Shown here piece by piece: positions 1 through 26,281 of a stretch of DNA of 26,281 bases (the stretch's first letter is position 1; every line of letters starts with the position of its first letter). The translations under genes and the position numbers were made by a program. This DNA comes from a virus. Where the stretch lies: IMG/VR virus record IMGVR_UViG_3300019776_000341, positions 1-26,281 of that record; one strand, 5' to 3'. The notes under the pieces were generated by a model that was not told where the DNA came from, ran no database searches, and saw nothing but the letters and a program-made list of their open reading frames with translations.

Positions 1-960
1 ATATAAACTAGCTGTAGTACTACTATTACGAACAGTCCAAGTCACACCGTCTGGGCTGGTTAATACTGTTCCACTGTAACCTACTGCCACAAACTGAGAT
101 CCTGACCAAGTTATACCTAGCAAAGTATTAGTAGTACCACTATTACGAACAGTCCAAGCCACACTGTCTGGGCTGGTTAGTACTAAAGCAATTCCAACTG
201 CCACAAACTGTGATCCTGACCAGGCTATACCAAATAAACCATTAGTAGTACTACTATTACGAACAGTCCAAGTCACACCGTTTGGACTGGTTAGTACTGT
301 TCCACTGCTCCCTACTGCTACAAACTGAGATCCTGACCAAGTTATATCATTTAAATTATCATAAGTATTAATACCACTATTACGTAGGGTCCAAGTCACA
401 CCGTCTGGGCTGGTTAGTACTGTTACAGTGCTTCCTACTGCCACAAACTGGGTTCCTGACCAGGTTATAGCATATAAACTAGCTGTAGTACTACTATTAC
501 GAACAGTCCAAGTCACACCGTCTGGGCTGGTTAGTACTGTTCCACTGTTCCCTACTGCTACAAACTGAGATCCTGACCAGGTTATGCTTTGCAAACTAGC
601 TGTAGTACCACTATTACGTAGGGTCCAAGTCACACCGTCTGGGCTGGTTAATACTGTTCCACTGGCCCCTACTGCCACAAACTGGGTTCCTGACCAGGTT
701 ATATCATATAAAATATTAAATATATCAATAGAACCAGTATAACGTACGGTCCAAGCCACACCGTCTGGACTGGTTAAAATTGTATAGTTCTCTCCTACTG
801 CCACAAACTGTGATCCTGACCAGGTTATGCTCTTCAAACCAGCTGTAGTACCACTATTACGTAGGGTCCAAGTCACACCGTCTGGGCTGGTTAGTATTGC
901 TCCACTGTCCCCTACTGCCACAAACTGAGATCCTGACCAAGTTATATCTGATAAGATATA
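1..960 (-). repeat. Tandem coding repeats, about 117 bp period, 8 units
   Basis: The plus-strand marker CCTGACC recurs at 101, 215, 332, 455, 572, 689, 815 and 932. The spacings are 114, 117, 123, 117, 117, 126 and 117 bases, all multiples of three. Units are closely similar at the DNA level around the blocks TCACACCGTCTGGGCTGGTT and CTACTGCCACAAACTG. The array continues past base 1. Frame-preserving spacing shows that gain or loss of units would leave the protein open. Confidence 0.93.
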
Positions 961-1041
961 TCTGTAAAATCTGCTGCCCCAAGAAGTGCCCTCAGCTACA
1001 CCTGACGACATACCAAACAATAATCTAGTTATTTCATTCAT
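1..1041 (-). CDS. Tandem-repeat beta-propeller-like tail protein (partial, runs off left edge)
   Basis: The frame is open from ATG at 1041 to base 1 (347 codons, no stop), so the C-terminus lies outside the window. After about 30 N-terminal residues (MNEITRLLFGMSSG...) the protein consists of repeats of 38 to 42 residues. The repeat consensus is ITWSGSQFVAVG, then SGTVLTSPDGVTWT, then RNSGTTA. The SPDGVTWT segment resembles the Asp-box of sialidase/BNR and Ycf48-like propellers (S-x-D-x-G-x-T-W), shortened by one residue. Eight such units are visible plus part of a ninth. Each would form a propeller blade, so a surface-exposed receptor- or glycan-binding protein at the tail end is likely. It follows the fibre gene at 1048-1515 by six bases and lies in the same frame. 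The ribosome binding site is weak (TTGAGATTAT). Repeats and coding are certain; the function is inferred. Confidence 0.8.
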   Translation of the reverse strand, partial: MNEITRLLFGMSSGVAEGTSWGSRFYRYILSDITWSGSQFVAVGDSGAILTSPDGVTWTLRNSGTTAGLKSITWSGSQFVAVGENYTILTSPDGVAWTVRYTGSIDIFNILYDITWSGTQFVAVGASGTVLTSPDGVTWTLRNSGTTASLQSITWSGSQFVAVGNSGTVLTSPDGVTWTVRNSSTTASLYAITWSGTQFVAVGSTVTVLTSPDGVTWTLRNSGINTYDNLNDITWSGSQFVAVGSSGTVLTSPNGVTWTVRNSSTTNGLFGIAWSGSQFVAVGIALVLTSPDSVAWTVRNSGTTNTLLGITWSGSQFVAVGYSGTVLTSPDGVTWTVRNSSTTASLY

Positions 1042-5059: not shown

Positions 5060-8000
5060 TTAATATCCTTTAATAGACCAAGAAACATCTGAAGATGCAC
5101 GAGTTCCAGAATTGTTGTATAAGTAGATTCTGAAAGATTGTGGATAGAATGACATACTTCCAGAAGTATTGCCCACAGTCATGGCTACATTGAACGTGTT
5201 GGTTGTATAACTTGTTATGGTATATACTCCGCTCAAGCCAAGTCCGGAACCCACAAACAGTTTTATTTTTTGACCTGTAATAAACCCATGATTTGCAAAT
5301 GTCACAGTGCACACATTGGAAACAACACTGTAAGTTCCTGTTTGAAACACATCTTTGAAGTCATATACTGCATACAGAGGAGTAGCTGCAGCACCTGCCG
5401 GTGACAGCGTTATACTCTGAATATCAATAAACTCTTTGTTAAAGTTTACCACAGTTCCCAAGGTGTCTGCCGCACTAACAGCATTGTATCCTGCATCATC
5501 TTTTAATTTTGCGTCCAAGCTCACTTTTAGGTTGGTTATGGCGTACAGGGTTGTATTGCCTGTTCCAGACACGCTCACTCGTACTTTTACATATCTAAAG
5601 GTACTTGCAAAGATCTGACTTACACCAACAAAGTCTGTATAGGTTGCGTTATTGAGAGACACACTAATAGTGTTGGTTACTACAGGTGTTCCTGATATGG
5701 TTGTACCTTGATAAGTAAGTGTAACTCTACTAGATGCCAGCGGCTGGCCGAAATCAAACATTTGTTCGTAGTAACCACTTGATTCAGATGGTTGAATAAA
5801 TATAGGATACCCTGCACTTACTTGACTTTGCGGACTAGTCCAACCTCTAGTTGTAAAATGCTGTTCATAGGTTTCAACAGTATTTACTGGCAATACTAAC
5901 TGTGAAGTTCCGTCAAAAGCTGAATTAACTTTTGTACCTGAAAAGTCACTAACACGTTCTCCATTAAATACAAAGTCTGGCGGCTCACTCACTGTTGCAA
6001 TTGTAGATACTGGGGTACTCTCAGCACCCTCTGTATCTACGCAAGCCAACCAGTAAGTAAAAGTACCACCTGTAATTTCACTGATACTGGTAAACTCACC
6101 TTTCTTTTCTCCCAACACTGTTGCAGTATTCCAAGTACTTCCTCTTTTTATCAGTATGTGGTCTATTGGCAGAGAGGTTCTACTAGGTAGTGTCCAATAC
6201 AACATTACATTGTTATCAATCACTTGAGATTTTACACCCTGTGGAGAGTTTGGAACAAATCTGGTTACAGAACCAATATAACCACTTGATTTTTTACCCA
6301 GTATGTCTACTGTTTTAACGGTAAAAGATCTGTCTCCTATCCAGTCTGCTGGTATAATAATAGAGTTGCTATTGGTGGTTTTTAGTATGTTGCCGTCTGT
6401 TGGATGGTAGTAAGCTATTTCGTAATATGAAACCACGAACTCTGAATTATCAACAGTGTTCCAGCTCAAAAGGACTGTGGCATTGGTTAGCGATGTATCA
6501 GCAAACTCATGATTCAATTGTGTAATATTTGGAACACTTTGAATATTGTATTGAACTGAAGAGGACGTTGTACCATAATTGTTGGAACTATCTACTGCTC
6601 TTATATAATACGTGGTTGCAGTGAGCGGTGTAGCAATGTTTGTTTTTGTTGAATCACCAAAAAATACTCTAAAAGTATCATTAGATCCCCAGTTGGAGTC
6701 TTGTGTTCGCACTTCATAAGTATAAGTATCCGGTTCAGGATTATCGTTCCAAGCTAACAGCAGCTGTCCGCTGGCCTTGTTTGAGGTTACAGTAAATCCA
6801 GTAACAATACCTGGAGGGGTTATTTTTCCTACTACAGTATGATTGCTGTAGGAAGACCAAGGCCCTGCGATACCATCTTTGGAAACATAACGCATTCTAA
6901 TCTTGTATGTTTCACCCTCTGTTACATCTGGTATATTAGCCGAACCTTTTTGGAATGGTACTATAACAGAGTTACTATTGAGATTGGTGGTTTGTGACTG
7001 CAGGTCGTACTGTACTTGTACTGCTTCGGTATTTTGTGGTAAATTGGATTGATTTATGTAGGAAACATTGATCTTATACTTAAATACACCCCTACTCACT
7101 CGCTCCATTACCGACTCGTCGCTCACAAATCCTGTGATTTGTGGAGCTTTGGTTCCAAACGACTGAATTTGCAGTGTGGGCGGCAGTGTGATCTGAGATT
7201 CAAAAACTGTGGCTTCACTGAGTGTCTGATAGTCGGTAAATATGTTGTAACTGCCAGTAACAACACCATAATCTACCAATGTAATTCTTGCATTGTTATT
7301 TGTTGTTGGCTCTATTTTTAATACCAACAAGTCTTGTGACTCTTGGTTTAGTGAACCAAATAAGAACAAGTCGCCTACGTCTGCTTCTGTGGTAGTCACA
7401 GAACTGGTTAAGGTTATTGTGTTGTAGTAGCCGTCCTCAATTTTTGGTACCACAGTTCTGGTAACAGAACCGCCTGTTTTGCTGCGAAATCGGACAGTAT
7501 AGTTGGTGTTAGCAACCATGGCCAATTCTTCGTCTAATACCAAAACTGTGTCAGACGTTCTGGCCTTGATGCGACCAGACCCCAATCCCCACATTGGAAC
7601 ATCATGCATTACTTTTACACGATCACCGCGATTACACACCAAGTATTCTATGTCACAGTTGAGAGTGTACACTTCTGGACGTAGCTTTATCTGCGCCATG
7701 TGCCAACGAGCATGGTCGATTACCAGGGACTTTTTGGTAACTCCTGGCAACACGATGCTCTCAAATAGACTGGAATTTACACTATTCTTGCCAGTATCAT
7801 AAACAATGATTTCTGATTCTTGATAGTCACGGTCCTGATCATAGTAGGTAACCCTCAACCCATCTGGTCTCTTTGGCAACGCTTTTACGCCTTCAAAGCC
7901 CCAGCTGTTGTGTGGTGTAAAGTGTTGGACTACTGTGGACTTTACTTCGTCTATTACAACACTCCATTTGCCATTTACAAGTGCAGGGCTGGCCCTGCCG

Positions 8001-10009
8001 GCTGCGCAAATGTCTCGTAACACCTCCAATATGCTGCGGGGTTGACCGCTCAATACACTGTTGTACTCAAATCCACGATTTTGGCAATAGTTGTAAAAGT
8101 TTTGCAGTGCGGGTAGATCTATCTGATTGGTGGCATCTGTAACTCTACGAGGATTTGCTGGGTGTTCCAACACGTATCGCATTAGAGCAGCTGGGTTGCT
8201 AGTAGCAGCATCGGCCCAAGAGCTTCCATTCCATGTTTTGCAATATGTTTGAACGACAGCATTAACGCCCTGAATACTACCGCCCAGCTGTTCACTGGCC
8301 TTTATTTTGATGGCAGTTTTTGCAATCTTTGCACCTACAGGATCTACTGCAGGATTACTGTTGCGTAAAAACGTTATGCTTTGCAATATGCTAGTAAAGT
8401 AGTATCGTTTGTCTGGGTTATCTTCAGTATTATCTCCCTTTGTACGACGAATTCTGATTAACAACTTATTAAAGTTTTGGTTATTGTATGTTTTTGTAAA
8501 AGTAAAGCCATCACGCTTTGGTGCGTCCCCACCGATAGTCAGTGCGTCTAAATAACTCCAGGTGGCTCCTTCGTTAGTAGAGTACTCTAGGTCAAAAGTT
8601 ACACTTACTGCAAAACTTTCTCCCGCGCTGCTACCCTTTGCCCATATTCCCCTCAAACCTTGCGGAAAGTGTAAGGCTATGGTAGTGGATACAACCGGAA
8701 CGACGGTTTGAGTATTTGGATCCAATTCTTCACCGACTCCGGCTTCATACCAAGGACCTGGCGATACCACAACCTCTGGGTTACCGTCACATACCAACTC
8801 CAATTGTGGGTTGATTTGATTGGTATCTTTGCCGTAAATAGCGTCAAAATTTTGCTTTACTGTACCGCTGGGTTCAGTAATACGATCCAAGTCTACTTTT
8901 GTAACCTGATCAAAGTTGTTTAACGGAATGGTTCCTATTCTATAACTGCTATTATCAATTACTAACGGTCCGTAACCCCAGACCAATAACATAGACAAAT
9001 AGCTATCACGTTCATTTTCGTAGGTCAAATAGTTTACACTGCCCAGTGGTGGAGTCATTCGTACACGACCCAACACCACAGGAATTGCACCGTATGGATT
9101 CAATTGATTTGATCCACCTGTCACCATGAGTTGGCGCTCGCTGCTGCCGGGGTCTTTTGGTTCTGCTGACGGTCTGATTGGGGCGATAGCGTTGATTAGA
9201 GCACCACCAAGAAGTGTTATACCGGCGGCTACAGCACTCGTTAACAAGGTTACGCCGGTTGCTGTAGTTATCCCTAAGGCCCCAGCAAGACCGGCTCCGC
9301 CGGCGGCTCCGACAATAGATCCAGCAAGAGGGCCTGCGGCAGCGGTCAGTGCAACAAACGCCAGCATTCGTACGGTGTCTTTACCAGCCAATGCACGGTA
9401 TTCCACAGTGTCGGTTGGGCCGATCACTGTAACACCCCACGCCACGCGCGGTACTGGTACGCCGTTGACCATTATAACAGCAGTTTTGCACAATTCTGGT
9501 GCAATGTTGTTTTGAGTGTTTACTAGTTCAAACAATTCCTCCAGGTTGGTACCAGGAGAAACATACTGTGTGATTCTTGTAGTCTTCAATGGATGTGGTA
9601 CTGCATTCAATACCACGCCCGTTTGTTCTACATACTTGTAAAACCCCACTACCCTCTTGGCCCACTTTGCATTACACACAGACTCGACTGCACTGTTGCT
9701 GTTTTGGCGTACGTGAACGAACTGGGTGTTGTTTATCATAACACCCACGTGTTGAGTTACTCCAAGTATTCTGAAAAGTACTAGGTCTCCACAGGTTGGG
9801 GATTCGACAGGTTGCCAGCCCTCTTTGTATTGAGCAAATAGTTCTGCAATACGTTCGTCGTCTTCCAACACATAACTGTCTTGAAAGCTGGGTAGGTCAA
9901 TGTTGTAGACTTCCTTGTAGATCAGTCGCACCAATCCCCAGCAGTCAAGACCAGCTGTGTCTCTGCCTTTTTCAAGGTAGGGAATACCAATGTACTTTTC
10001 AAAATTCAT
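5060..10009 (-). CDS. Tail tip fusion: NlpC/P60 peptidase + gpI-like + gpJ-like with FN3 domains, 1649 residues
   Basis: Three parts that are separate in lambda (K, I, J) are joined here. Residues 1-130 are an NlpC/P60 cell-wall peptidase with Cys23 in LDCWGLV, His87 in QHVGVMI and His99 in FVHV. Residues about 150-290 resemble gpI: a ubiquitin-like segment (FELVNTQNN...VMVNGVPV) and a long Gly/Ala-rich hydrophobic stretch that could cross or touch the membrane. From about 290 onward the chain is J-like (ERQLMVTGGSNQLNPYGAIP, VVLGRVRMTP), the central tip that contacts the receptor. FN3-like domains start near residues 958, 1068, 1161 and 1255; a beta-rich C-terminus follows from about 1345. 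The role is host wall opening and adsorption. The fusion is read from one uninterrupted frame. Confidence 0.92.
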   Translation of the reverse strand: MNFEKYIGIPYLEKGRDTAGLDCWGLVRLIYKEVYNIDLPSFQDSYVLEDDERIAELFAQYKEGWQPVESPTCGDLVLFRILGVTQHVGVMINNTQFVHVRQNSNSAVESVCNAKWAKRVVGFYKYVEQTGVVLNAVPHPLKTTRITQYVSPGTNLEELFELVNTQNNIAPELCKTAVIMVNGVPVPRVAWGVTVIGPTDTVEYRALAGKDTVRMLAFVALTAAAGPLAGSIVGAAGGAGLAGALGITTATGVTLLTSAVAAGITLLGGALINAIAPIRPSAEPKDPGSSERQLMVTGGSNQLNPYGAIPVVLGRVRMTPPLGSVNYLTYENERDSYLSMLLVWGYGPLVIDNSSYRIGTIPLNNFDQVTKVDLDRITEPSGTVKQNFDAIYGKDTNQINPQLELVCDGNPEVVVSPGPWYEAGVGEELDPNTQTVVPVVSTTIALHFPQGLRGIWAKGSSAGESFAVSVTFDLEYSTNEGATWSYLDALTIGGDAPKRDGFTFTKTYNNQNFNKLLIRIRRTKGDNTEDNPDKRYYFTSILQSITFLRNSNPAVDPVGAKIAKTAIKIKASEQLGGSIQGVNAVVQTYCKTWNGSSWADAATSNPAALMRYVLEHPANPRRVTDATNQIDLPALQNFYNYCQNRGFEYNSVLSGQPRSILEVLRDICAAGRASPALVNGKWSVVIDEVKSTVVQHFTPHNSWGFEGVKALPKRPDGLRVTYYDQDRDYQESEIIVYDTGKNSVNSSLFESIVLPGVTKKSLVIDHARWHMAQIKLRPEVYTLNCDIEYLVCNRGDRVKVMHDVPMWGLGSGRIKARTSDTVLVLDEELAMVANTNYTVRFRSKTGGSVTRTVVPKIEDGYYNTITLTSSVTTTEADVGDLFLFGSLNQESQDLLVLKIEPTTNNNARITLVDYGVVTGSYNIFTDYQTLSEATVFESQITLPPTLQIQSFGTKAPQITGFVSDESVMERVSRGVFKYKINVSYINQSNLPQNTEAVQVQYDLQSQTTNLNSNSVIVPFQKGSANIPDVTEGETYKIRMRYVSKDGIAGPWSSYSNHTVVGKITPPGIVTGFTVTSNKASGQLLLAWNDNPEPDTYTYEVRTQDSNWGSNDTFRVFFGDSTKTNIATPLTATTYYIRAVDSSNNYGTTSSSVQYNIQSVPNITQLNHEFADTSLTNATVLLSWNTVDNSEFVVSYYEIAYYHPTDGNILKTTNSNSIIIPADWIGDRSFTVKTVDILGKKSSGYIGSVTRFVPNSPQGVKSQVIDNNVMLYWTLPSRTSLPIDHILIKRGSTWNTATVLGEKKGEFTSISEITGGTFTYWLACVDTEGAESTPVSTIATVSEPPDFVFNGERVSDFSGTKVNSAFDGTSQLVLPVNTVETYEQHFTTRGWTSPQSQVSAGYPIFIQPSESSGYYEQMFDFGQPLASSRVTLTYQGTTISGTPVVTNTISVSLNNATYTDFVGVSQIFASTFRYVKVRVSVSGTGNTTLYAITNLKVSLDAKLKDDAGYNAVSAADTLGTVVNFNKEFIDIQSITLSPAGAAATPLYAVYDFKDVFQTGTYSVVSNVCTVTFANHGFITGQKIKLFVGSGLGLSGVYTITSYTTNTFNVAMTVGNTSGSMSFYPQSFRIYLYNNSGTRASSDVSWSIKGY

Positions 10010-20794: not shown

Positions 20795-20834
20795 GGTTTT
20801 TCCAAAGTGTTGAACACAACACTTTGGAAAAACC
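20795..20834 (-). other. Perfect 18-bp hairpin beside the adaptor ribosome binding site
   Basis: Bases 20795-20812 pair perfectly with 20817-20834 around a 4-base loop. The stem ends right next to the AAGGAGAG (20794-20787) of the adaptor gene and shares GGTTTTT with the downstream arm of the capsid terminator, so both cannot form fully. It could act as an antiterminator, an RNase III site, or a shield of the 5' end of the adaptor messenger. Confidence 0.8.
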
Positions 20835-20854
20835 GGGGGTATCCCCCCGGTTTT
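20828..20854 (-). terminator. Rho-independent terminator after the capsid gene
   Basis: On the messenger AAAACCGGGGG (20854-20844) pairs with CCCCCGGTTTT (20839-20829) around the loop GATA, an 11-bp stem ending in a run of five U. It starts nine bases after the capsid stop. It probably reduces read-through into the adaptor and tail genes and favours capsid messenger. Confidence 0.85.
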
Positions 20855-20863
20855 AGTCAGTTA

Positions 20864-22264
20864 TTAAACTGCTCCGTTAACGTAACGTAGGGTGCTTACT
20901 GCAGGGCCTAGGTTAGTTGTCAACTGAGTTAGACCTGTACGCAGTGATGCCACTAGTACACGGCTCTGACGCTCTGTCAACACGTCTGTGTCAACACGTA
21001 GACCACGCTGGTTGCCTACCAAGAAGTTGGCAGGTGCAAAGCAGAAAGCTGCAATGTTTGTACTTGCGCCGTCAGCTGCTTCAGCGATTGCAGGCATTTC
21101 GCCGCTTACAACGACCGGTGTGTTGGCAATAGTACCAATTTGGCCGGTTAACAATGTAGCACGATCACCGATCTTGTCTACAGTCAAGAAGCTGGTGTCG
21201 TCTAATAGATTGTAGTAGGTTTCTGTGTTAACTACATAAACCAGCTCTGAGGGCTCTAGACCCCAAGCTCCCAAGTCCTTGCGAAGGGCTCTCATCTTGG
21301 CGATGGTTACAAGGTTGCTTGAATCAATCTGTACAGCACTTGCAGTATCATACATTGCAACGCCACGAACTGGATCGCTTGCAGTACCAGCACCATTGAT
21401 CATGGCAGCGTCTACAGCACGTGCAACACGGCGTAGCATAGCGTCACGAACTAGTGGTAACAACACAATGATTGAATCCTCTTCTTCTTCGAGAGCCATG
21501 TACTCACGTGTGGCTACCTTGAAGGCATTTAGAGTGATTTCTTTCAATACATGAGTGTCTGTAGTACCAGAGCTATTTAGGTTACTGTTACCAAAATCAC
21601 TGTTCTGAACCCAAGTGGCCTTGCCGGCTTCTGGGTTTAGAGGCATTCTCATAACGTTGGTTTGCATTGCAACGTTTCTCATGAGAGGAGCCATTACCAA
21701 TCGACGGCGCACTTCGTTTTCCATATTTGTAGAAACTTCTGTTTCCCAAATGCTGGCAGGTGCTGCAACTAAGCCTGATGTGTTGCTGGTACCACCCAGG
21801 TGACCACCGGCCTTTTCAACGACCATCTTACCATAGCGAGTGCTTTCAATGCTCTTGCCAGTTACCTTGCTGAGCAACACAGCCATTTCACGCTCTTGGT
21901 AAGTTGTACTATCGCTGCCGCGCTTGTCACCAAAAGTCATCTTTGACTTTTGTAGAGCTTCTAGTTCGGCAGCCTTTTCCTTTAGGCTGGCTTCTAGACC
22001 TTCTAGAATGCCTTTTTGGGCTTGACGCTCGTCAGCCAGGCGCTTTTCAACTTCGGCTAATAGCTTTTCTGCACCAGTTTGACCAACCTGGATCTGAGCT
22101 TCGACGGCAGCCTTAACGCGGCTGTCGATTTCAGCTTGGCGGGCAGCTTCTTTCGCCTTAGCCTCTGCTTCGGCTTGTTGACGGGCTTCTAGAGCCTTGG
22201 TAGCTTGTTCTGCGGCTTCACGAGCAGCTTGTGCAAGCATTTGCTTGATTTCTTCTGGATTCAT
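20864..22264 (-). CDS. Candidate internal-start product: scaffold-capsid protein, 466 residues
   Basis: Met193 of the fusion is an ATG at 22264 (MNPEEIKQMLAQAAREAAEQ) preceded by AAAAAGGA seven bases upstream. The product would contain the coiled-coil scaffold and the complete capsid domain but no protease. It is the size of a normal HK97-type capsid precursor with delta domain. This would let capsid be made in large excess over protease from one gene. Predicted from the ribosome binding site and domain border only. Confidence 0.7.
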   Translation of the reverse strand: MNPEEIKQMLAQAAREAAEQATKALEARQQAEAEAKAKEAARQAEIDSRVKAAVEAQIQVGQTGAEKLLAEVEKRLADERQAQKGILEGLEASLKEKAAELEALQKSKMTFGDKRGSDSTTYQEREMAVLLSKVTGKSIESTRYGKMVVEKAGGHLGGTSNTSGLVAAPASIWETEVSTNMENEVRRRLVMAPLMRNVAMQTNVMRMPLNPEAGKATWVQNSDFGNSNLNSSGTTDTHVLKEITLNAFKVATREYMALEEEEDSIIVLLPLVRDAMLRRVARAVDAAMINGAGTASDPVRGVAMYDTASAVQIDSSNLVTIAKMRALRKDLGAWGLEPSELVYVVNTETYYNLLDDTSFLTVDKIGDRATLLTGQIGTIANTPVVVSGEMPAIAEAADGASTNIAAFCFAPANFLVGNQRGLRVDTDVLTERQSRVLVASLRTGLTQLTTNLGPAVSTLRYVNGAV

Positions 22265-22840
22265 ATTCCATTCCTTTTTAATATCGCCGTTTGAACTTGT
22301 ACCCTTTTCTAGCCCTTTAGCTGATGGAGTATTATTTGCAAACTGCTCTTTGTAACGCTTATAATCGTCAGCACTATCAAATGCTTTACTTAAATCAAAA
22401 ACAGTATTTTGATTTGCAGGTACTGAAACGACAGAAATTTCTACCAGTTCCAATTCCTTGATTAAAAACACTTCAGCGGCTGAGTTGTACTCAGCGTCCA
22501 ACACCCTGAAGCCGATAGAAAAAGCTGTTAACACCCCGTCTTTGATAAGCTGGAACTGTTTGGCAGCTGTTGAAATTCTTGCTTTAATCCATAATCCCTT
22601 TGAATCCGTTTTATGCTCAGTCATACGTCCGATCGGATTGCTGTGATCATGGTATGCTAAGATAATAGGATTTTTAAGGTAGTTAGTCATGCCCTTTTCC
22701 CAGACTGAACTGGGAACAACATCTCCCTGACGATCTACGTCGGTGGTACTTGCGTAGCCTTCAATGTAGATAGAACTGGGATTGTCAGTTGCAGCTTTAA
22801 TGGAAAAAGCACTATTTAAATGTAGTACTTTATCTTTCAT
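20864..22840 (-). CDS. Prohead protease-scaffold-major capsid protein fusion, 658 residues
   Basis: Residues 1-165 are an HK97 prohead protease (PF04586 type): YIEGYASTTDVDRQGDVVPS, His64 in LAYHDHSNPIGR, Ser108 in TAFSIGFRVLD, and ELVEISVVSVPANQN. Residues about 195-300 are an Ala/Glu/Lys/Gln-rich coiled coil like the HK97 delta/scaffold segment. From about 310 the chain is an HK97-fold capsid protein (ETEVSTNMENEVRRRLVMAP, VQNSDFG, VATREYMALEEEEDSII, LRKDLGAWGLEPSELVYVVN, VDTDVLTERQSRVLVASLRT). In HK97 protease and capsid are separate genes. Here the frame is unbroken, with an internal start. Start ATG 22840 has TAAGGAG upstream, just after the portal stop. Confidence 0.93.
   Translation of the reverse strand: MKDKVLHLNSAFSIKAATDNPSSIYIEGYASTTDVDRQGDVVPSSVWEKGMTNYLKNPIILAYHDHSNPIGRMTEHKTDSKGLWIKARISTAAKQFQLIKDGVLTAFSIGFRVLDAEYNSAAEVFLIKELELVEISVVSVPANQNTVFDLSKAFDSADDYKRYKEQFANNTPSAKGLEKGTSSNGDIKKEWNMNPEEIKQMLAQAAREAAEQATKALEARQQAEAEAKAKEAARQAEIDSRVKAAVEAQIQVGQTGAEKLLAEVEKRLADERQAQKGILEGLEASLKEKAAELEALQKSKMTFGDKRGSDSTTYQEREMAVLLSKVTGKSIESTRYGKMVVEKAGGHLGGTSNTSGLVAAPASIWETEVSTNMENEVRRRLVMAPLMRNVAMQTNVMRMPLNPEAGKATWVQNSDFGNSNLNSSGTTDTHVLKEITLNAFKVATREYMALEEEEDSIIVLLPLVRDAMLRRVARAVDAAMINGAGTASDPVRGVAMYDTASAVQIDSSNLVTIAKMRALRKDLGAWGLEPSELVYVVNTETYYNLLDDTSFLTVDKIGDRATLLTGQIGTIANTPVVVSGEMPAIAEAADGASTNIAAFCFAPANFLVGNQRGLRVDTDVLTERQSRVLVASLRTGLTQLTTNLGPAVSTLRYVNGAV
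22272..22279 (-). promoter_or_regulatory. Internal ribosome binding site for the scaffold-capsid product
   Basis: The messenger reads AAAAAGGA (22279-22272), then seven bases, then ATG at 22264, inside the protease-capsid fusion and at the boundary between protease and coiled coil. The spacing is close to ideal and the strength similar to that of other starts in this window. Confidence 0.7.
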
Positions 22841-22852
22841 AGGCTCCTTACC

Positions 22853-24040
22853 TCAATTTTGCGGAGTCTTTTTAGGAGCTCCTCCCACGCTAGGATTGCT
22901 AGCACTGCCTGCAATATTGGCTGGTACACGCAGGTCGTCATGACCTGGCTTGGCCACATAGCGTAGTTCCTCTCGGGCTTCGTTTGGAGAAATTACTCCG
23001 CCGTTGACCAGAGTGGTATAGTAAGCAGCCACGTCTTTCAATTCAGGCTGCAATGCTGATACGGTTGCAGTTACTGCTTCTACATCGTATCCGAAAAATC
23101 TTTCTACTGCACTAACATATCGATTTACGATGGGTAACACAGTCTCCAAGTAAAACAGTCTGAGGTTGGGGGCAATGTTTGCATTGTTGCCACCGTCTAA
23201 CAGGATTGGCGGCACTCCCAAGCTCTTCAATATCTTGGTGTCATGAGTTTTGATTGAGACATCAAAATCCATGTCTTTGAAAGTGTCGGCAAACTCTCCC
23301 CAGGGCTTTAATCCGCTGTCTAATATCATGGGACGTCGAGCACCATTTTTGGGTGAGTATTGAGTTTTCCAAGCTTCTAATGTTCGTTGCTTTGCAGTAG
23401 GGCTCAGAGTGTTGTCACTGGTCAAGATCAGGCCCATCACAGCTCCATTATCAAAGAACTGTTCTTGAAAGGTCTGCATCTTGTACAATATCTTGATGTT
23501 GCGGTCAGCTGAAGCTAAACGACTGGTGCCACGATAGATTGACACGCTGCTCAAGTCTTTGATGTGAAACACCTCGTCAGGCTTGAAAGTCACCTCTGAG
23601 TTGTAAGTATAGCCCTTTACAAAAGTTTTAGGGTCTGTTTCAATCTGTACGTTGCTGGCTGGTAGGTGGTACATGTGGGCACCATCCCAGTAGATAAATA
23701 TGTTGCCTTCCAGCAAGAAGTCTGTGAACATATTTATGCGAAATTCTTGTGCGCTTTGATATGGATTGGGTGTATAGTTCAACAACTTGATCAAGCTCTT
23801 TTGTCGTACACCACCCACTACCGCGTCGGCTTTGCTCTCTTTTACGTCGTAGTCCAGACTACTGCATGCACTCACAATCATGTTGACGCCACGGTTAACA
23901 CTCTCCAACCGGTTAAACGCCTGTAGGTAACTGATTGTGGCATTGGTGTCAACGCTGGTGCCTTCGTCACGACTAATAACGCCTTGAGCTGGGTTTAGTT
24001 TGGTAACCAACCAGCCCCTAAAATCTTTGATGATGTTCAT
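22853..24040 (-). CDS. HK97-type portal protein, 395 residues
   Basis: The chain has features of the phage portal family PF04860: NRLESVNRGVNMIVSACSSL, LLNYTPNPYQSAQEFRINMF, DFLLEGNIFIYWDG, YHLPASNVQIETDP and FKPDEVFHIKDLS. Further on are FFDNGAVMGLILTSD, LKSLGVPPILLDGG and LRLFYLETVLPIVNRYVSAV. Twelve copies would form the DNA channel at the unique capsid vertex. The start ATG is at 24040 (MNIIKDFRGW), with GAGGA about six bases upstream; a TTG at 24052 is in frame but less likely. The ribosome binding site overlaps the stop codon of the HNH gene. The stop is followed after 12 bases by the protease-capsid fusion. Confidence 0.92.
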   Translation of the reverse strand: MNIIKDFRGWLVTKLNPAQGVISRDEGTSVDTNATISYLQAFNRLESVNRGVNMIVSACSSLDYDVKESKADAVVGGVRQKSLIKLLNYTPNPYQSAQEFRINMFTDFLLEGNIFIYWDGAHMYHLPASNVQIETDPKTFVKGYTYNSEVTFKPDEVFHIKDLSSVSIYRGTSRLASADRNIKILYKMQTFQEQFFDNGAVMGLILTSDNTLSPTAKQRTLEAWKTQYSPKNGARRPMILDSGLKPWGEFADTFKDMDFDVSIKTHDTKILKSLGVPPILLDGGNNANIAPNLRLFYLETVLPIVNRYVSAVERFFGYDVEAVTATVSALQPELKDVAAYYTTLVNGGVISPNEAREELRYVAKPGHDDLRVPANIAGSASNPSVGGAPKKTPQN

Positions 24041-24048
24041 GGGATTCC

Positions 24049-24477
24049 TCAATAAAATTCGCTAAAACTGCCAGTCACCGCTTTGGGTTTAGTGTCTTGC
24101 GGTAACAATGTCTTAGCTTTTTGAGTTTCTATCCAGGAACCTTGCTTGACAGCAGTGGAAAGTGGTGGTGCTTTACCATACACTCCGTGCAGGGCTACAT
24201 GGTGACGGTTGCACAGTGTGTACACATCATCATATATTTCTTTGCGGTGATATTCAATAAACTCCTCACGATTTGCTAATACGGCTTCATCCGAGGAAAA
24301 ATCACGACCAGTTTTTTCAATCCAACGCTCTAACAACAGTGTCACTGAATGAGTGTGGTGCAGCTCCAAGTCTTTGTCGGTGCCACAAATATAACAATGA
24401 GCCTCTTTTTCATAAGCACTTTTAGCTTTATCCCGTATCCATTTTACAGGTATTCTGTTCCTAGTATTATTAGCCAT
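24049..24477 (-). CDS. HNH endonuclease, 142 residues
   Basis: A Cys-x2-Cys pair (CYIC, residues 28-31) is followed by ELHHTHSV (His40-His41) and LCNRHHVALHGVYG (Cys89, His92-His93). This is the HNH nuclease core with a zinc-binding cluster. HNH proteins near the terminase and portal genes of HK97-like phages take part in DNA packaging, while others are homing enzymes; I cannot separate the two roles here. Beside two GIY-YIG genes a homing role is possible. I use ATG at 24477 (MANNTRNRI); the frame extends to a TTG at 24486. It overlaps the end of the upstream GIY-YIG gene by eight bases. Confidence 0.85.
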   Translation of the reverse strand: MANNTRNRIPVKWIRDKAKSAYEKEAHCYICGTDKDLELHHTHSVTLLLERWIEKTGRDFSSDEAVLANREEFIEYHRKEIYDDVYTLCNRHHVALHGVYGKAPPLSTAVKQGSWIETQKAKTLLPQDTKPKAVTGSFSEFY

Positions 24478-25177
24478 CGGCGGCAATTCTCCAGCCTTTG
24501 TGAGTTTTACGGTTGCCTTTTAATAACATACTAAAAGCATATTGATGTAATGCATGCTGTCTACAAAATTCTGTAACGTTAGAAATATTGTTATATACTT
24601 CACCACTGGGAGATACTACTGGAAGATATTTTATACCTCTGGCCCCAGAAGAATTTCTAATACTAATTCTGGTTCCATTGAGCGACATTACATTACTATA
24701 CATGTCCGGATATTTTTCCTCAAGCCACTGATGAGTCTTACCACAAGCTGTTTGTCCTATAATACTGACGCTTACTCCGGTAATTTCACTAATTTTTACA
24801 AATGTAATTTTAGGATCGCAAAGTAGTTCTAATACTTTTTCTACTTGACAATTTGAATATTTAGCATGACCATTGTTTTCACCACGCGACTCGGGTGTAT
24901 CTGTAGCATGTTCTAGTACATTGAAACCGTTATTTACGCAGTCAAATATCTCTATTGCTTCATCTTCTGTGATATTTAATTCTTCAACACTACATTCACA
25001 GAGTATTTCTAAAAAAGGATTTCCATACTGAATGTACGCTTCCATCATTTTTGGATTAGCTTTATTGTTAATAAAGCTACTTAAATGCTGTTTGTAACGT
25101 TTTTCTATGTTGACGCTTTGCCCAACGTAGCACTGATCTGTGCCATTGAAGCACAGACGATAAATTCCAATAGTCAT
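24470..25177 (-). CDS. GIY-YIG endonuclease with C-terminal DNA-binding modules, 235 residues
   Basis: The nuclease core lies in residues 1-95: GIY at 4-6, YVG at 17-19, Arg27 and His31 in KRYKQHL, and a probable catalytic Glu73 in ITEDEAIEIF. Residues about 110-160 (HAKYSNCQVEKVLELLCDPK, then ISEITGVSVSIIGQ) look like a helix-turn-helix. Residues about 185-230 (VSPSGEVYNNISNVTEFCRQ, then SMLLKGNRKTHKGWRIA) resemble NUMOD-type modules of homing endonucleases. It is more AT-rich than its neighbours, which suggests transfer. It is the first gene after promoter P2 with a leader of about 100 bases. A free-standing mobile endonuclease is likely. Confidence 0.88.
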   Translation of the reverse strand: MTIGIYRLCFNGTDQCYVGQSVNIEKRYKQHLSSFINNKANPKMMEAYIQYGNPFLEILCECSVEELNITEDEAIEIFDCVNNGFNVLEHATDTPESRGENNGHAKYSNCQVEKVLELLCDPKITFVKISEITGVSVSIIGQTACGKTHQWLEEKYPDMYSNVMSLNGTRISIRNSSGARGIKYLPVVSPSGEVYNNISNVTEFCRQHALHQYAFSMLLKGNRKTHKGWRIAADG

Positions 25178-25329: not shown

Positions 25330-25380
25330 CCTACAAATTTCAGTTCCACAATTTATACCACCAGCTACTAGATTTGTAGG
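25330..25380 (-). repeat. 9-bp inverted repeat at the end of the upstream GIY-YIG gene
   Basis: CCTACAAAT (25330-25338) and ATTTGTAGG (25372-25380) are perfect inverted copies, 33 bases apart, spanning the last codons and stop of the gene at 25340-25825. No U-run follows directly. It may form a long hairpin or mark an insertion boundary; evidence for either is thin. Confidence 0.35.
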
Positions 25381-25825
25381 CTCGAAGTGAAGCCACCTCC
25401 AGTTCCAAGTCTTTCAATCGGTCTAGTTCCCCAGGAGCCACTACACCGTGAAGACGTAGGTCCTTTAACTCACGGGCATTCTCAGACATGTTTTTGAGTA
25501 GGGCTCCTGTGCTGTGCTCCAAGACATGGCTATAACTACGTACCCAGCTGTCGTGTTCTGGAACGTCGGGGTACACAGTATTCAACAAGTTGACGCCTCG
25601 GCTAATCCAGGACCTCTCCAAAACATCTAGATGATCTGGATGGCACAGCTCTAACACCTCACAACTTGGAACTCCCCACACCTTGTAGTGAGACTGCAAT
25701 TCGGATGTGTGATTACCACGACGCAGTGAATTCAAGTGCTGTTTGTAGCGAGCACTTATGTCTACACTCTTGCCAATGTAGTTATAGCCGCTGTCGAACT
25801 TTAGGATATAAATTCCGCTTTTCAT
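25340..25825 (-). CDS. GIY-YIG endonuclease, 161 residues
   Basis: GIY at residues 4-6, YIG at 16-18, Arg26 and His30 in ARYKQHL, and Glu70 in LDVLERSWI form the GIY-YIG nuclease core. The tail is short (ELKDLRLHGVVAPGELDRLK, DLELEVASL), with a coiled-coil helix and no recognisable NUMOD module. RYKQHL and the spacing match the other GIY-YIG protein in the window, so the two are distant relatives. I use ATG at 25825 (MKSGIYILKF), four bases after the terminase stop. The frame extends to 25855, but that would overlap the terminase end and place extra residues before the conserved GIY start. A free-standing homing-type enzyme inserted between terminase and portal is the likely role. Confidence 0.85.
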   Translation of the reverse strand: MKSGIYILKFDSGYNYIGKSVDISARYKQHLNSLRRGNHTSELQSHYKVWGVPSCEVLELCHPDHLDVLERSWISRGVNLLNTVYPDVPEHDSWVRSYSHVLEHSTGALLKNMSENARELKDLRLHGVVAPGELDRLKDLELEVASLRAYKSSSWWYKLWN

Positions 25826-25829
25826 AGTC

Positions 25830-26281
25830 TTAAATAGTCCAAGAGTACAGGGCATATCTTAAGGCATCTGCCATGTGACTGTGTTTGTCGTGTAATGGTT
25901 TTTCTTTGGTCAGAGTCTCTCTGCTATCCCATCTGTATTGGCTTAACATTTCTAAGGTGTGAACACAATGAGGCGATACTTTTAACCGTCCGGTTTCTAT
26001 AATGGTTTGTACATATGCGATTCCAGGCAGTATATCTTTTTTTGCCTTGATAGTTGCTATGTCGTATAGATACGCAAGATCACTTGCAAATTGAGGTGCG
26101 GCGCTGTCTATAAATATACTGTCTACTTTCCAGCGCTCAATAAGTTCTTTAAAAGCAACGGCATGTATATCTGTAGTAGCTTCTGCTTTTAGGTACTCGT
26201 CTACCACATGAAAGGTGGACGAGGCTTGATTATAAACTATTACTATGAAAGATGTGGGGTCCCGGTATCCCACGTCAATAC
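25830..26281 (-). CDS. terL: Terminase large subunit, C-terminal nuclease domain (partial)
   Basis: The frame is open to the right edge, so only about 150 residues are seen. It begins with IDVGYRDPTSFIVIVYN, the first Asp motif of the RNase H-like nuclease that cuts concatemeric DNA during packaging. SIFIDSAAPQFASDLAYLYD carries the middle acidic motif, and KHSHMADALRYALYSW the last Asp (HxxDAxRYA). The ATPase half lies outside the window. The first GTG in frame (26273) is inside the nuclease core and is not a start. It ends at TAA four bases before the GIY-YIG gene. Confidence 0.92.
   Translation of the reverse strand, partial: IDVGYRDPTSFIVIVYNQASSTFHVVDEYLKAEATTDIHAVAFKELIERWKVDSIFIDSAAPQFASDLAYLYDIATIKAKKDILPGIAYVQTIIETGRLKVSPHCVHTLEMLSQYRWDSRETLTKEKPLHDKHSHMADALRYALYSWTI

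Follow-up and report, generated by a model that had tools for sequence, protein, structure and literature searches.

Does a gene that joins a prohead protease, a scaffold and a major capsid protein in one reading frame make one protein or two? The question is raised by a stretch of viral DNA of 26,281 nucleotides (IMG/VR record IMGVR_UViG_3300019776_000341; hereafter the window), in which such a gene lies on the minus strand. A preliminary description of this DNA had noted HK97 modules fused without a stop, with a ribosome-binding site and an ATG exactly at the border between protease and coiled coil, and had proposed that few full-length fusions and many scaffold-capsid chains would result. 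Comparison with related sequences leads us to propose that this one gene has dual-start expression, giving both protease-scaffold-capsid and scaffold-capsid chains, a reading whose probability we put at roughly 85%.

Layout of the fused gene and its split relatives

Positions 20864-22840 (minus strand) form a single frame of 658 codons, from ATG to TAA, with no internal stop, and both HK97 modules were recovered in it, as the preliminary description had claimed. The 658-aa product comprises a prohead protease, a linker, a scaffold (delta-like domain) and a T5-type major capsid protein. Its Peptidase_S78 domain occupies residues 17-150 (22391-22792, minus strand; Pfam, 4e-19) and its Phage_capsid domain residues 367-634 (Pfam, 7.5e-13); the NCBIfam models proheadase_HK97 and major_cap_HK97 both score above their cut-offs in the fused ORF, and PHROG 617 covers almost the entire protein. 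The N-terminal part belongs to the caudoviral S78 prohead proteases (PF04586: 69.8 bits for a cut-off of 21; TIGR01543: 75.3 bits for a cut-off of 59), and His64, His66, Ser108 and Glu134, unchanged across 14 fusions, are its putative catalytic residues. The C-terminal part is a capsid protein of the T5-type HK97 fold: a profile of the 14 fusions retrieved 8ho3 (2.9e-62), 8zvi (5.9e-61) and 5tjt (4.9e-53) from the PDB, the alignment with the mature T5 chain beginning at about profile position 346. In the AF2 model, the protease is confident (about 80 pLDDT) up to approximately residue 166 and matches T4 gp21 (Foldseek, 1e-05) and herpesvirus assemblins, residues 170-194 have very low confidence, a helix starts at 195 and the scaffold helices (195-300) are predicted with low confidence; built on an alignment of 14 sequences, the model is reliable for the protease alone and its capsid part is unusable. 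On this model, residues ~170-194 would form a disordered linker between protease and scaffold.

The gene is preceded by the SD region TAAGGAG-CCT-ATG (22841-22855, minus strand), with a spacing of 3 nt. Directly 3' of the capsid stop codon lies a terminator-like hairpin, AAAACCGGGGGGATACCCCCGGTTTTT (20828-20854, minus strand), although the count of such sites in the region is not above chance. Between this hairpin and the next gene's SD, a near-perfect inverted repeat, TTTTTCCAAAGTGTTG-TGTT-CAACACTTTGGAAAAA, was observed (20797-20832), to which Rfam returned only chance matches of miRNA type. Elsewhere in the window, two GIY-YIG homing-endonuclease-like ORFs (24470-25177 and 25340-25855, both minus strand) separate a terminase fragment (25830-26279) from the portal gene, and a small ORF with HNH-like Cys/His residues (24049-24486, minus strand) lies where T5/BF23 have their nicking endonuclease (L042:1825-2262). 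An edge-open ORF (1-1041, minus strand) with about eight repeats like 'ITWSGSQFVAVG..GTVLTSPDGVTWTVRNSGTT' is probably a propeller-type tail protein, and a 1649-aa ORF (5060-10009, minus strand) seems by eye to be another fusion, of an NlpC/P60 peptidase-like N-terminus with a tail-tip protein.

Three scans of IMG/VR yielded 161 loci (window included) having both halves of the gene, and the fusion is in one frame in all of them. A search of a genome collection for close relatives returned distant protease matches only. The closest cultured phages are T5-like (Demerecviridae), and the three that were fetched are all split, unlike the 161 fused loci. They share with the window the T5-family capsid, its N-terminal scaffold domain (predicted in the window) and the order portal-protease-capsid; however, their protease and capsid are two genes, 14-17 nt apart, with the SD ACGGAGAA between them, whereas here a single frame contains an internal SD. 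BF23 also carries a decoration-protein gene between portal and protease, which is missing here, the two genes being 12 nt apart (22841-22852). In Aeromonas phage AhSzq-1 (MG676224), protease and capsid are annotated as broken fragments, both covered by tblastn, which probably reflect sequencing or annotation errors. In BF23 and Eos, the capsid gene is separate, with an SD of its own, and begins at a position that aligns, within a few residues, with codon 193 of the fusion; thus the internal start discussed below is the place where a stand-alone capsid gene starts. In the simple reading, the fusion would have arisen by loss of the intergenic stop. The T5 capsid precursor bears an N-terminal helical delta domain of approximately 160 residues that is removed at maturation (PMC10713586), and HK97 gp5 likewise has its scaffold (delta) domain joined to the N-terminus of the capsid protein (PMC10275583), although in HK97 the protease has a separate gene.

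A conserved candidate internal start

The internal in-frame ATG is codon 193 (22262-22264, minus strand), the predicted start of a 466-aa scaffold-capsid chain. It follows the SD AAAAAGGA (22272-22279, minus strand), in which AAGGA (22276-22272) stands 7 nt 5' of the ATG with the spacer ATGGAAT. The predicted short product (20867-22264, minus strand) would consist of the scaffold helices and the capsid protein, related to 8ho3, 8zvi and 5tjt. Since AF2 confidence ends with the protease, falls over the following residues and gives way to helices at 195, this ATG sits at the protease/scaffold border, and its placement in the preliminary description was exact: codon 193 is where the linker ends and the scaffold helix begins.

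The 161 loci comprise 124 distinct fusion sequences, which were reduced to 74 representatives (less than 90% aa identity). An ATG in the codon-193 column, preceded by RAGGA, is present in 124 of the 124 distinct fusions; RAGGA is found 4-11 nt 5' of the internal ATG in all 74 representatives, versus only 10 of the 1197 in-frame ATGs elsewhere in these ORFs. The gene thereby displays the nested dual-start pattern of the lambda C/Nu3 type, namely an in-frame internal start with an SD inside a protease gene, conserved in relatives. A synonymous-site scan of the 74 representatives placed the SD codons among the minima of the ORF (observed/expected 0.03 and 0.00), and over 37 phylogenetically independent pairs they exhibited 0 synonymous differences for 16.2 expected (P 6e-9). 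The peptide encoded at the SD varies (KKEWN, NEEWK, TKELE, SKEIG, SKEII) while the motif is constant; it lies 3 nt further upstream in L059, L168 and sequences of the L066/L082 type, and L075 retains it in a different codon register (SKGKWK), with a 9-nt spacer. Furthermore, the weakest RNA folding of all 50-nt windows of the ORF surrounds the internal ATG (-2.7 versus a mean of -8.7 kcal/mol, s.d. 2.1). The comparison with homologues thus indicates that the internal ribosome-binding site is conserved beyond amino-acid constraint, the nucleotide sequence of the SD itself being under selection. Related fusions devoid of such a site, which the preliminary description had named as evidence against its proposal, were not found among the close relatives.

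These data also bear on another explanation, in which the full-length chain is the sole product, each subunit loses its protease by self-excision, and the internal SD is left over as a relic of a two-gene ancestor or comes as a by-product of the KKEWNM peptide. The fusion itself fits this scheme, as do the processed precursors common among viral structural proteins, and single-sequence synonymous shuffles reach a similar SD strength. As a test of the SD, however, such shuffling was rejected: taken one by one the sequences are not significant, and the test has no power because runs of K, E, R and G yield SD-like codons anyway. A relic would decay, whereas the SD codons are without synonymous change in the independent pairs, and the residues near the SD vary while AGGA and ATG persist. 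Moreover, if each of the several hundred subunits carried a protease, the inside of the shell would presumably be crowded. We therefore judge this explanation very improbable.

The linker speaks for the long product. Its sequence is highly variable and its length changes by whole codons only (22-28), and its frame is open in 161 of 161 loci, whereas the +1 frame has stops in 68 of the 74 representatives and the +2 frame in all 74. Since the linker is open in every relative, the long product should be selected as well; judging from these alignments, the fusion and the internal start both appear to be maintained by selection. One could argue from the T5-like relatives, where protease and capsid act as separate proteins, that the shell depends on the short chain alone, the open linker frame being accidental and the protease merely carrying a passenger. 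Yet so variable a linker without stop or frameshift in 161 loci, next to alternative frames that are nearly always closed, makes an accident scarcely credible.

The relative amounts of the two products are less evident. The SD of the protease start has a mean duplex energy of -7.4 kcal/mol, with AGGAG mostly 3-5 nt from its ATG. For the internal SD, of moderate strength, the mean is -5.8 kcal/mol, with RAGGA 7 nt from the internal ATG. Neither strength nor spacing clearly indicates which product is in excess. Hence, of the few full-length and many scaffold-capsid chains initially proposed, the two nested in-frame products are sustained by the conserved SD and ATG, the open linker and the T5-like capsid start, whereas the ratio is not, the upstream SD being stronger but more tightly spaced. 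By analogy with other phages, an excess of short chains would be expected.

A second constrained element upstream

The strongest synonymous constraint in the ORF lies elsewhere, in a 16-nt stretch at codons 173-178 that we call element B (CAGCTAAAGGGCTAGA; 22308-22323, minus strand). Its synonymous rate is the lowest in the gene, below that of the SD (two codons: P ~1e-15), with P 4e-28 over the scanned block of codons 172-177. In the fusion sequences compared, element B is located 54-60 nt 5' of the internal ATG; among its exact matches from IMG/VR, 116 of 119 share this gene context, at a distance of 51-63 nt (mostly 57). It has one copy in the window, and nearly all of the long contigs searched likewise contain a single copy per genome. 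The codon positions beside it are free (tca/aca/cca/gca; gaa/gag/gac/gat), and GGG, which represents 4% of glycine codons, is present in 65 of 65 elements. The sequence is invariant and could fold into a small hairpin with a bulged A. It is absent or degenerate in nine representatives belonging to several clades, and it was not found in the T5-like phages, so that inheritance from T5-like ancestors was rejected. Thus, while the internal start of the preliminary description was confirmed, a stronger nucleotide-level element approximately 57 nt upstream, which may join in its control, had been missed.

Two roles for element B were rejected. Its single copies contradict a repeated promoter or one arm of a long-range pairing, the other one-mismatch matches being scattered at about the control level. 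For a programmed frameshift, both other frames do have stops, but no conserved slippery site was seen and two sequences lack the +1 stop. An internal sigma-70 promoter was also dismissed, such sites showing no excess over chance.

Nested products can also arise at the level of transcription. In herpesviruses, the protease-scaffold gene UL26 contains UL26.5, a nested co-terminal scaffold made in excess; the protease has a related fold (model match), but UL26.5 is transcribed from a start of its own inside the gene, and the capsid is a separate protein. By the same route, the short product of the present gene could come mainly from a separate message, if transcription began, or the RNA were cleaved, close to element B, leaving the SD within a 5' leader of some 50 nt. 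The constraint on element B, the strongest in the ORF, its gene specificity and its mostly constant distance of 57 nt from the ATG are all in keeping with this, as is the terminator-like hairpin 3' of the capsid gene. However, several clades keep SD and ATG with element B absent or degenerate, no sigma-70-like site stands out from a chance number, and a single copy per genome is unlike a general phage promoter. We consider a separate message unlikely as the main source. A reasonable guess is that element B influences the nested start as a site of RNA processing or of regulator binding; it may also indicate, against the dual-start reading, control at the RNA or DNA level rather than at initiation alone.

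Unrelated fusions, precedents and implications

Fusions of protease, scaffold and capsid are already known in Arthrobacter phages Circum and Maggie, Microbacterium phages BurtonThePup and Camille, and RRH1 (PMC5513430, PMC7302621); where these papers treat the fusions, an internal start is not mentioned. Like the window's ORF, to which their sequences are barely related, these genes and that of Lactococcus 1706 encode the three modules together, most with an SD and ATG after the protease. We fetched 23 such fusion genes, most of which display an in-frame ATG with a good SD after the protease (GTG in Lactococcus 1706); the internal start is at codon 165 in Circum, 171 in Camille, 160 in Maggie, 166 in BurtonThePup, 172 in MooKitty, 173 in Barebow and 241 in Nightmare. 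Within 120 codons after the protease, an internal start exists in 16 of 17 ORFs of actinophage/Lactococcus type. A strong SD precedes 24 of 46 ATGs in this zone versus 22 of 135 elsewhere (P = 4e-6, for a zone picked post hoc and uncorrected for relatedness). Alphaproteobacterial prophage fusions of family NF045541 have an internal start in nine of the 10 readable genes (L357 not read), as in L353 (AAAGGAGAACCGTTCT-ATG). The window's protein was not assigned to this family, its match being limited to residues 60-276 at 57.8 bits, versus more than 525 bits for full-length members. An internal ribosome-binding site, which the preliminary description would expect in related fusions, is also present in most of the unrelated ones, although Emperor has no clear internal start and those of L355 and Yavru are weak. 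These fusions attest the presence of internal starts, nucleotide-level selection being shown in the window's family only. The Circum-type genes (L178, L181, L191-L198) contain a second conserved in-frame start with SD, on the scaffold/capsid side (motif EG....M.RNVFDQ), and might therefore yield three nested products.

Dual-start expression is the best explanation of the window's gene because it accounts for the conserved SD and ATG, the nucleotide selection, the low structure, the open linker, the T5-like capsid start and the unrelated fusions. Comparative sequence analysis supports the fusion, the conserved SD and ATG, the selection at the SD and the in-frame linker. We infer the following scheme, in which one late gene would be translated in a single frame from two starts. 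The protease-scaffold-capsid chain would be initiated at 22840, and the scaffold-capsid chain, counterpart of the stand-alone capsid precursor of T5-like phages, at the internal SD and ATG (22264). With an identical scaffold-capsid part at their C-terminal ends, the two chains are expected to co-assemble; the protease would enter the procapsid covalently, as part of the long chain, and would there remove linker and scaffold by cleavage. More tentatively, and at somewhat below even odds, unrelated fusion lineages may have converged on an internal start at the edge of the protease, whether by retaining or by evolving it, while in the window's lineage the so far undescribed element B would regulate the choice of product, for instance as an RNA-processing or regulator-binding site.

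In phage lambda, the scaffold Nu3 is nested in frame inside the protease gene C. The scaffold is also nested in the protease gene in Mu (I/Z) and the Mu-like PaMx73 (PMC4378225). As in the present gene, lambda C/Nu3 and Mu I/Z combine a nested in-frame start in a protease gene, an SD about 8-9 nt before it and a co-terminal product; however, the part shared by their two products is the scaffold alone, the capsid being encoded elsewhere, whereas here it is scaffold plus capsid. The principle is known from lambda and Mu; for capsid fusions, no description of such nested starts was found in the open-access papers searched, where it appears not to have been reported.

In hundreds of phage records, a protease-capsid fusion is given as one protein, an annotation that would be incomplete if two products are made. 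Element B is a candidate cis-signal in environmental phages of a very common group. Comparison with the split T5-like phages suggests how a two-gene module can fuse yet retain a separate supply of capsid subunits and, if dual-start expression is true, the dosing of protease into the shell would become testable by silent mutation within one gene.
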